In this document: positions 55,201 through 59,765 of the stretch, piece after piece
Layout: every line of letters begins with the position of its first letter
Position numbering within the stretch: position 1 is the stretch's first letter
Assembly: GCA_030141605.1 (NCBI GenBank)
Contig: JAQGDQ010000985.1
Span: 1-64,000 of the forward strand
Direction of reading: 5' to 3'
Length of the DNA stretch: 64,000 nucleotides
From: Tubiluchus corallicola
Taxonomy: Eukaryota; Priapulida; Priapulimorpha; Priapulimorphida; Tubiluchidae
Notes under the pieces: model-generated
Told to the model about the DNA's origin: nothing
Seen by the model: the letters and a program-made list of their open reading frames with translations, nothing else
The model's database searches: none
Made by a program: the position numbers and the translations under genes

Positions 55201-56947
55201 TCAGAGCTTTGTTGGACTTTCAAATGTTTGTAAAAATTGTTTAAACTGTTTGTCAGACAATAAATTTGATTGTTCCATTCTGTAGACATTCCTTATATCG
55301 ACTGTCCGAGTTACATAAACTCCATTGGCTTTTTTACTATGATTATAACCAAAAAATTTTACATTGATACTTAATATAAATCTTAACTACGCTTGAATTA
55401 ACACACCGTGGAGATATTATTGAGGTTTATGAAGTATTAACCAGGAAAGAAAACATTTTGATTAAAAATTTCTTTAATGTAGTTGTTGATTCAAAAACTG
55501 AAGGACGACATAGTTTAACATGCCTAAAGAGCGGTCACGTCTCGACATTTATAAATATCCGTTTACTGTTAGAATGGGATAATCTGCCTGCCCTGGTGAT
55601 TGCTGCACCAATCCTAGTAAAATGCAAATTTTTAACTGACGATTCTTTTGTGGAAAAATGTGGGGTTTCTATGAGTGTGCTCGCTTAAACCCGAATCAGG
55701 ATAGTATAACAGTACAACATGCCTGGCAATACACAGCTGCTGTCGCGAAAAAACGGCGACGCGTAGCTTTCTGAGGTGTGTGAAAAATCACGCGCGCTGA
55801 TTGGACAGTCAGCAGAGCTTTAGTGAACATCATTGACCTTCTGCTTGACGTTAATTGGCTAGATTCTTGTTCCGTCATACATGTTAAGCAGGCAGGCTCT
55901 TCGAAACTAAGAATATATAGTTCCAGCATTCCACTAAAAAGAGAGTCCACTGTCTGAAATCGATATTCGGTGGATGACAGACAGTGATCTGTTTGAGGAG
56001 TTAGTTCCCTGCTGTCATCCTTGGCACACAGTTGTAGGCACAACCTTTGTATTGATCATGACCATAAAATTTTACTGTTTACATTTACTCGTGTATGAAA
56101 TATATATGTTTATTTTGCGCCTAATAAATAACAATAACTAAATGCAATACTGTTGTGGCAACAAGTATACTTTAAGTTTCTGCTTCATGATTTTCCATGA
56201 AAATTGTCAGATCTAGGAATAAGACAGCCACGCCATCTCTAATATTACTCTGTAAATTTCAGAAACTCTGTCGAGCTACGGCGGTCTTGTTGGATTATTT
56301 TTACCTAATTGGATTTTCAAGTCTAACGGGAGTGGCTGTATACGTGGCCATTAACGCTTGCAGGTTGTTGACCAGTCCAAGAAATGGACAAGTGCTTGTA
56401 GCAACAATCGTCTTTTGTTGGGGTAACACATATGAAATATATATGTATCTTTTATAAATGTCTAATAAAATGTTTGGTAAATAAAAGCTTTTCCCACATA
56501 CTAGCCTATCCATTTAAGTTTCTTTTCTTAATTTTTGTGTGTTTATTCGTTTACTTCTTCCCCTTTTCTTCTCTCCTTTCGCTCAATTATTGTTGAGTCT
56601 TCTCATTATCACGAGTCGTTCGTTTATTTATTTATTTGTTCTGTTATGTAATTATTTGTTAGTTTGTTTGTGTTGTGTTTATATTTATTCACATTTATTC
56701 TTGTTTGTTTTTTCTAGCGTTTCCTTTACTTCCAATTGGAATATCATTGGCCATTGTTGGTGTGGATAGTTATGGAGCTGTAAATCAGTAAGCAATTAAC
56801 GTTTGATTTTGCTACTTCAACAAACTGAATTGCTAATAACAATAAACTGCGCAATTAGTATGAAATATTGTGATTGGCAATTTTGTAAAAAGTGATTTTT
56901 TTTGTTTTAGTTGTTGGATGGAGAGAAGGAGAGAGAGAGAAAAATAG
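34269..56947 (+). CDS. Adhesion-type GPCR B (EGF/Ig/HRM/GAIN), truncated after TM4
   Basis: Plasma-membrane receptor. Exons: 34269-36684, 37088-37327, 40004-40146, 42445-42562, 44080-44241, 45059-45145, 45449-45555, 46423-46602, 46775-46843, 47847-47943, 49179-49383, 50424-50529, 51446-51495, 52275-52493, 53820-53922, 56263-56422, 56718-56787, then 56911 on. Phases agree throughout; coding length to TM4 is 4532 nt (about 1510 residues). Order: signal peptide (LPGLFLGLCLIVTITA), 20 EGF-like domains (residues about 27-800), Ig 1 (exons 2-3, closing with DSG-KITC), Ig 2 (exons 4-5, FYTCIASNAAG), HRM-like module (exons 6-7, conserved Cys and Trp), GAIN-like region (exons 8-13), GPS remnant, TM1 (exon 14), TM2, TM3-TM4. 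The next exon starts with the ECL2 HCW but is cut by the inverted duplication at 56919. Read-through stops at 56945-56947. TM5-TM7 are absent. The GPS lacks the HLT/S cleavage triplet. Confidence 0.85.
35871..36572 (+). repeat. Three 234-bp tandem units encoding EGF pairs
   Basis: Units start at 35871, 36105 and 36339 with GATCCTTGTTTTAACGATCC, exactly 234 bp apart. Each encodes 78 residues, or two EGF-like domains (CFNDPCANGTC... and CFSSPCNNGTC...). They are nearly identical, which indicates recent in-frame expansion inside the first exon of receptor B. Confidence 0.97.
36823..36960 (+). repeat. About 620-bp interspersed repeat, 3' fragment
   Basis: Matches the last about 140 bp of the family at 5287-5895 (TTAATCTTTTGTTAACTATC, AAATGTTTTTACAGTATTA, TTAAAATGTATAGTTTTTA). 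It lies in the intron after the EGF exon of receptor B. Confidence 0.65.
37321..37600 (+). repeat. 40-bp tandem array that repeats a splice donor
   Basis: GATTCAG followed by GTAAG recurs at 37321, 37361, 37401, 37441, 37481, 37521 (here ATAAG) and 37561, exactly 40 bp apart. The first copy is the 3' end of receptor B exon 37088-37327 with its donor. The others are intronic duplicates of exon end plus donor. Using a downstream copy would add 40-bp steps and bring in a stop. Confidence 0.9.
38340..38500. repeat. AT-rich (AAT)n tract
   Basis: Imperfect AAT/ATA trinucleotide tract in a receptor B intron. Confidence 0.9.
41122..42052. repeat. 71-bp minisatellite, about 13 copies (left arm)
   Basis: Tandem units of about 71 bp with TTGTATTGTGATGTTGTTTT and ATTTATTTCTAGATTTATAA, in the intron before the second Ig-like domain. 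The corresponding array in the right arm (60953-61372) has only about six copies. Confidence 0.95.
42629..43335 (+). mobile_element. TATCG-rich element of about 700 bp (left-arm copy)
   Basis: Begins GAGTTGACAATTATCG and ends AACATCTC, giving weak inverted ends (GAGTTG against GAGATG). Its ends are full of ATCGTATCGATA-like motifs. A 63-codon open frame inside is present in both arms, but nothing marks it as a gene. Probably a non-autonomous DNA transposon; no clear target duplication. Confidence 0.45.
46090..46290. repeat. CT-rich low-complexity tract at the duplication edge
   Basis: Runs of CT, TTTC and poly-T. The inner boundary of the inverted duplication lies in this tract, and the right arm starts with the complementary GA-rich sequence. 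Confidence 0.9.
46966..47668. repeat. Pentanucleotide satellite (TACGA/TGCGA/TACAA)n
   Basis: About 700 bp of five-base repeats in blocks: TACAA, TGCGA, TACGA, TACAA, TACGA. It lies in a receptor B intron between exons 46775-46843 and 47847-47943. All long frames through it on both strands are repeat artefacts. Confidence 0.97.
48258..48490. repeat. Compound trinucleotide repeat (ATT)n(GTT)n(ATC)n
   Basis: Successive blocks of ATT, GTT and ATC units, in a receptor B intron. Confidence 0.97.
48491..49178. other. Receptor B intron, nothing recognised
   Basis: AT-rich intron up to the acceptor ATTTTTTTTAG before exon 49179-49383. No repeat family recognised. Confidence 0.5.
49905..50200 (+). 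repeat. About 620-bp interspersed repeat, 3' half
   Basis: Matches the second half of the family (TTTAGTACAACACACTAAAT, TGTGACGTCATCAATAGTTA), as in 5287-5895 and 50628-51255. It ends shortly before receptor B exon 50424-50529. Confidence 0.75.
50628..51255 (+). repeat. About 620-bp interspersed repeat, full copy
   Basis: Near full-length partner of 5287-5895 in direct orientation, including CTAGTTCTTCGCTGTTACAT and GTTTGTGATGTCATCAATAG. It fills the intron before exon 51446-51495. Confidence 0.8.
51664..52172 (-). mobile_element. hAT-like MITE with internal (CT)n, copy 2
   Basis: Inverse-orientation copy of 13147-13633, 509 bp. Both ends read CAGGGCCTATTTCA when taken inward. Flanking octamers GTTACAAT (51656-51663) and GATACAAT (52173-52180) match at seven of eight bases, a typical hAT target-site duplication. 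It lies in the intron between receptor B exons 51446-51495 and 52275-52493. Confidence 0.9.
52880..53110 (-). repeat. About 250-bp interspersed repeat, copy 2
   Basis: Inverse copy of 19190-19440 (ACTGTTTTACACTTGCTACA, TGAATGCGGCTTCGA). In the receptor B intron between TM1 and TM2 exons. Confidence 0.7.
53437..53510. repeat. Short inverted repeat (29-bp arms)
   Basis: TACGAAAGCGTATTAGGGCC faces GCCGCAATACGCTTTCGTA, giving a 29-bp hairpin arm. The same motif recurs at 53665-53695 in the tandem copy. Confidence 0.85.
53490..53833 (+). repeat. About 171-bp tandem duplication copying a splice acceptor
   Basis: Two direct copies starting at about 53490 and 53662. Each ends in TTTTTTTTCAG or TTTTTTTCAG followed by ATTTATTTCAGTAGAT. 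Only the second (acceptor at 53819) continues into the TM2 exon of receptor B. The first leaves a decoy acceptor at 53648. Confidence 0.9.
53923..55384. other. Receptor B intron, nothing firm
   Basis: Short open frames at 54537-54785 and 54975-55184 lack recognisable motifs. No exon is needed here for the receptor model. Confidence 0.5.
55385..55690 (+). mobile_element. CR1/Rex-like LINE relic (ORF2 C-terminus)
   Basis: The frame contains HRGDIIEVYEVLTRKENIL, then GRHSLTCLK and WDNLPALVIAAP. It follows the usual order 'RRGDLIxVYKIL...RxHSLxL...WNxLPxxVVxA' at the end of CR1-type LINE ORF2. 5'-truncated, in the receptor B intron between TM2 and TM3 exons. Confidence 0.75.

Positions 56948-59765: not shown

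Follow-up and report, generated by a model that had tools for sequence, protein, structure and literature searches.

The window analysed here, a 64,000-nucleotide stretch of Tubiluchus corallicola DNA, holds a receptor gene (receptor B) that is cut off inside an exon and continues base to base into an inverted copy of its own upstream part, which raises the question of whether this gene is broken in the animal or was joined wrongly on the way to the assembly. A preliminary description had left the choice between a rearrangement and an assembly join open. In this study, the junction and the two arms were compared in detail, and we prefer a library or assembly chimera, with a probability of roughly 0.6, in which the contig returns to the locus in reverse and follows the second haplotype of a highly heterozygous animal; a recent rearrangement is its main rival. 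The confidence given to this and to the competing readings is a judgement and was not computed. The coordinates of all main features are listed in Table 1.

Table 1. Positions of the main features in the window and of the receptor B exon copies on the inverted arm.
Feature	Position	Strand	Remarks
Receptor A, 3′ end	345..9045	+	9 exons; TM2-TM7 and tail; tandem paralogue of receptor B
Receptor B, gene model	34269..56787	+	17 exons, hand-picked splice sites, consistent phase; EGF repeats, Ig, HRM-like, GAIN-like region, TM1-TM4
Partner arm	38936..46191	+	inside receptor B; E3-E7 and introns
Junction-proximal block	44375..46191	+	5 substitutions/1815 sites (counted from 44374) relative to inverted arm
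CT-rich tract	46098..46293	+	196 bases, by TRF and composition; junction cuts near its middle
Receptor B, exon 17 (TM4)	56718..56787	+	last complete exon
Receptor B, exon 18 start	56911..56919	+	TTGTTGGAT, ECL2 Cys-Trp; cut after 9 bases
Junction	56919		pairs with 46191 on the other arm
Inverted arm	56919..64000	-	runs off the window; carries copies of receptor B E3-E7
Copy of E7	57659-57553	-	
Copy of E6	58049-57963	-	
Copy of E5	59032-58871	-	
Copy of E4	60652-60535	-	
Copy of E3	62846-62704	-	

Joining the exons of receptor B, all with splice dinucleotides present, yielded 1510 complete codons (4530 coding bases) with no stop among them. Pfam matches to EGF, Ig_3, and 7tm_2 were above cut-off, with the first 301 of the 805 residues of exon 1 used as EGF query. 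The secretin-like 7TM match covers TM1-TM4 (PF00002, E 1.6e-08, 34.5 bits, cut-off 20.6), while GAIN (PF16489, E 6.7e-06, 26.1 bits) was just under its cut-off of 26.5 and the HRM preceding it (PF02793, E 0.00042, 21.1 bits) was below its cut-off of 26.2. A single Ig stretch was matched by Pfam, located in E2-E3, and the Ig label on exons E4-E5 is our own naming. Seven distinct solved sequences were found as relatives, ADGRL3 (E 6.2e-09) and ADGRL2 being the best by sequence and ADGRG6 and ADGRD1 weaker. A protein search with the part from GAIN to TM4 (419 aa, E8-E17) gave 5652 word-sharing candidates and no match at E ≤ 0.001. Receptor B is classed here as an adhesion GPCR. Members of this family usually carry HL/T as the cleavage motif at their GPS. 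In the respective segment of receptor B (52275-52493), where self-cleavage usually occurs, W-S-E-D-G-C is kept and HL/T was not seen, and self-cleavage may therefore be absent. Compared with adhesion GPCRs of the HRM-GAIN-7TM type, as far as these are described in the excerpted text of PMC12716839, receptor B shares the secretin-like 7TM, for which ADGRL3 is the best solved relative, and the HRM-like segment immediately before the GAIN-like region, with about 280 residues (hand count) from this segment to TM1 against about 280-330. It differs from them in its ectodomain of EGF repeats and Ig, and in that TM5-TM7 are absent from the window.

Several repeats and neighbouring elements were also noted. 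A 40-bp tandem array of seven copies (37317-37596) repeats the end of exon 2 and, with it, the splice donor in the same or nearly the same form, providing several possible donors for this exon, and the intron before exon 15 contains a 172-bp tandem duplication (53490-53835, 96% alike). Between receptors A and B, a sulfotransferase coding sequence lies on the + strand at 25038-25542 (PF00685, E 3.3e-22), with a likely earlier piece near 20.5 kb that gave no Pfam match. A piece of a Pao-type retrotransposon was found on the minus strand at 12506-13123 (PF05380, E 1.5e-15), and the minus-strand frames beside it, to about 16 kb, may be part of the same element.

The intron before exon 18 of receptor B ends with the acceptor GTTTTAG, its last base being 56910, and the exon then opens with the ECL2 Cys-Trp as in receptor A. 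This had been claimed before and was confirmed here, including the phase: the counterpart exon of receptor A (2209-2275) opens TTGCTGGATTGAACTAG, and its TTGCTGGAT at 2209-2217 stands in the same phase as TTGTTGGAT of receptor B. Base-by-base comparison placed the last mismatch at 56918, and 56919 starts the reverse complement of the sequence that runs leftward from 46191; together with blastn this showed the coordinates reported previously to be exact. At the junction, at least one base (56919) is certainly shared. There are no runs of N anywhere in the window. With one certain shared base and no N run, a simple false overlap of reads is impossible, and a chimeric read or a patch is required if the join is artificial. 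Splicing of exon 17 to the truncated exon 18 puts the first stop, TAG, at 56945..56947 (+, position counted by hand), and the literal translation of the broken gene comprises 1522 aa, ending ...AVNHCWMERRREREK*.

The loss of TM5-TM7 and the tail, stated previously, was borne out within the window. All sequence after 56919 is inverted arm, so that no normal 3′ end of receptor B follows and a complete seven-helix bundle is not present. Exons A18, A19, A20, and A23 of receptor A, four of its six exons after TM4 (A21 and A22 were left out), matched only receptor A itself when compared with the window by tblastn, the next matches having E 0.11 or weaker, a search that diverged short exons could escape. 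A copy of TM5-TM7 of receptor B may exist elsewhere in the genome. The breakpoint had been placed in GA-rich sequence, and this applies to the 46191 side, where 46085-46300 is 94% pyrimidine on the + strand, but not to the receptor B side, which is ordinary intron and exon. A false overlap or slip between two GA tracts was rejected for this reason.

The arms were aligned by blastn over 4593 columns (41618-46191 against 61373-56919) with 93.7% identity, gaps counted, and further blastn pieces extended the match to 38936, paired with 64000 at the window end; the far end of the arm is not visible. Chance similarity is ruled out by this length of more than 7 kb. A simple hairpin or missed-adapter read, a known type of sequencing artefact, was rejected as the source of the join, as the arms are separated by 10.7 kb of single-copy sequence and have diverged by 5.2% in their distal parts. 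This non-duplicated spacer measures 10,727 bases (46192 to 56918). Divergence is not constant along the arms. In the junction-proximal block it amounts to 0.28%, with two indels in addition to the five substitutions, and in the distal part to 5.2% (225/4313 substitutions) with 30 indels; a single change point fits best at 44375 (log likelihood ratio 65.6). The distal part is itself uneven, with values between 0.8% and 9.9% in bins of 250 bases, minisatellite excluded. All divergence counts leave out the minisatellite region 41100-42060, and the indel counts depend on the MAFFT alignment. The 71-bp minisatellite itself has 13.1 copies at 41121-42048 and 6.1 copies at 60943-61373. Only the inverted arm carries an insertion of about 340 bp (about 61990-62331) with an AATA-type tail at its end, which looks like the insertion of a putative short retroelement, and only this arm carries a 97-bp tandem duplication (63605-63789).

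Whereas a simple duplication would be expected to diverge more evenly, the arms form a mosaic. Such a mosaic is the pattern of two haplotypes in a polymorphic animal, and paralogues with gene conversion could match it too. The duplicated stretch thus shows allele-like differences with exons open in both copies, as expected for a misassembly, a finding that diverged paralogues would match equally well. Of the inverted duplication proposed in the preliminary description, the broken exon and the join itself are present, but the distal arms are too different, with the exons of both still open, for the second arm to be well explained as an old duplicate born with the break. More likely, as far as the arm comparison indicates, it came from an already diverged homologue, either the other haplotype or a paralogue.

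A real and recent rearrangement, in which exon 18 broke and the repair copied backwards from 46191 on a homologous chromosome differing by 5%, would be an inverted duplication in which the 3′ end was lost, and would make the allele a young receptor B null. With its 10.7-kb spacer, the locus fits the anatomy of human germline inverted duplications. In PMC3907307, these have spacers of 766 to 70,466 bp in 21/21 sequenced junctions, below 15 kb in 20/21, and 2-8 bp of shared sequence at 13/21 junctions. Like the germline fold-back inverted duplications with terminal deletion described there, the present locus has a spacer of similar size, an inverted arm, and distal loss; unlike in these, the distal arms are 5.2% apart, and neither a telomere capture nor a translocation end is visible in the window. 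A non-duplicated spacer between the arms, as fold-back requires, was found. Equal similarity of the arms along their length, as expected from a single template, was not, the values being 0.28% and 5.2%. Fold-back onto the same chromosome predicts equal distal arms, so that a divergent homologue must be invoked, and only one base is certainly shared. We consider a recent rearrangement unlikely, though it has to be taken seriously.

How old a real break could be was judged from the reading frames. In all five exons of the inverted arm (E3-E7), the reading frame and the splice dinucleotides are intact. Exons E3-E5, which lie in the distal block, contain no indel, against an expectation of 3.3 derived from the remainder of that block (P 0.04). 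Substitutions in the distal block were as frequent in exons (23/423) as outside exons (202/3890; P 0.82), and between the arms E3-E5 have dN 0.048 and dS 0.085 (7.5 synonymous and 15.5 nonsynonymous changes). From these dN/dS values and the equal substitution rates, constraint on both copies is weak. In simulations of neutral decay, half of the changes were transitions and two thirds of the indels were counted as frameshifting. With the whole receptor B at the distal per-lineage divergence, 0/4000 runs remained without stops and frameshifts and 1.1% without stops alone. With E8-E17 alone, 1.9% remained free of stops and frameshifts and 29.6% free of stops, which makes this a much weaker test than that on the whole gene. 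In 2000 neutral simulations of the whole receptor B, a per-lineage divergence of 0.5% left 5.4% open and one of 0.14% left 45% open, the latter permitting a young break and thus a recent rearrangement. Since receptor B is still open, the break either came long after the arms had parted or is not in the animal, unless the truncated receptor is selected.

An old fold-back inverted duplication, leaving receptor B as a pseudogene with arms that have diverged since, is simple, agrees with the presence of inverted arms, and accounts for the equal exon and non-exon substitution rates, as in relaxed sequence. However, not one of the 4000 simulated genes stayed intact at the distal divergence, and even divergence is predicted in place of the observed step; only selection on the truncated receptor itself would rescue this explanation. 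In view of the open frames it is the least probable of those considered. The local duplication of the family, seen in the tandem paralogues receptor A and receptor B, suggests a further possibility, namely convergent, tail-to-tail receptor B paralogues (B and B′) that lost both 3′ ends to a recent central deletion, which brought the HRM-GAIN intron of B′ up against exon 18 of B. In that case the proximal block would be a product of gene conversion, and the stepwise divergence fits a conversion tract. Three events are required, however, and the window contains nothing of B′ beyond its exon 7, so that we regard this deletion as improbable.

For the preferred library or assembly chimera, a chimeric read or clone would have joined exon 18 to 46191, either by inverted re-priming at a short match or by a patched gap beside the CT/GA tract. 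With 44375 to 46191 nearly identical between haplotypes, the assembler would have left this shared block along the other haplotype. The true TM5-TM7 of receptor B would then sit elsewhere in the assembly, and the sequence past 64000 would be, in reverse, what precedes 38936 on the second haplotype. A chimera is favoured by the stepwise divergence, from 5/1815 to 225/4313, and by arm differences of the haplotype type (minisatellite copy number, 340-bp insertion, 97-bp tandem duplication). It is also favoured by the open frame of receptor B despite the distal divergence, by the exons and splice dinucleotides of the inverted arm kept in 5/5 cases with no indels in distal E3-E5, and by the position of one junction side in a CT/GA tract, a class prone to HiFi coverage dropout. 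Drops of HiFi coverage in tracts of this type are described in the excerpts of PMC9186530 and PMC10234299, but the CT tract found here, with its 196 bases, is shorter than the dropout tracts reported in the latter excerpt.

Comparable artefacts are known. According to PMC1868934 and PMC2864568, heterozygous assemblies can set alleles side by side, and in a zebra finch gene the first exons were lost to annotation owing to an inverted contig (PMC9516821). The tandem allele misassembly of Ciona savignyi (PMC1868934) and false segmental duplications (PMC2864568) resemble the present case, as far as their excerpts go, in that adjacent diverged versions mimic a duplication; they differ in that their second version is adjacent or in tandem, whereas here it has the opposite orientation and is fused directly to the cut exon. 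Neither 'inverted' nor 'orientation' appears as a word in PMC2864568. Chimeras from whole-genome amplification (multiple displacement amplification) are inverted with an intervening deletion in over 85% of cases in PMC1855051, and like the locus studied here combine inverted sequence with an intervening displaced stretch. In that study, however, they favour a single molecule, from which arms equal throughout would be expected, in contrast to the unequal arms observed, and over 70% were primed at 2-21 complementary bases, compared to one certain base here.

The main point against a chimera is a join without N's and without overlap. Moreover, its geometry is the same as that of known real inverted-duplication rearrangements. 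The proximal block is imperfect, with its five substitutions and two indels, and the distal divergence is uneven, from 0.8% to 9.9%. The evidence from open frames is also tempered, because equal substitution rates in exons and outside imply weak constraint and the decay test on E8-E17 is the weaker one.

For annotation, a gene caller would output a truncated four-helix receptor B and an extra fragmentary antisense paralogue, both probably false. Neither the four-helix receptor B nor the minus-strand exons 57553-62846, as a new gene, should be reported before confirmation by reads. Arms whose divergence changes in a step, combined with reading frames still open next to a break that is supposed to be old, give a cheap warning of such joins from sequence only. 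If the join is real, it would represent a young structural null allele of a receptor gene with copies 5% apart. It is very improbable, and rests on the join being both real and segregating, that a structural allele of receptor B with open ectodomain and TM1-TM4 acts as a decoy or self-silencer; its product of 1522 aa would end ...HCWMERRREREK*, once the second extracellular loop has begun. If this were true, a divergent antisense copy of the receptor B Ig and HRM exons would lie just downstream, and read-through transcripts would form a hairpin in which arms exceeding 7 kb enclose a loop of 10.7 kb. Such a hairpin would be a possible source of small RNAs silencing intact receptor B, and the allele would then not be a simple null.
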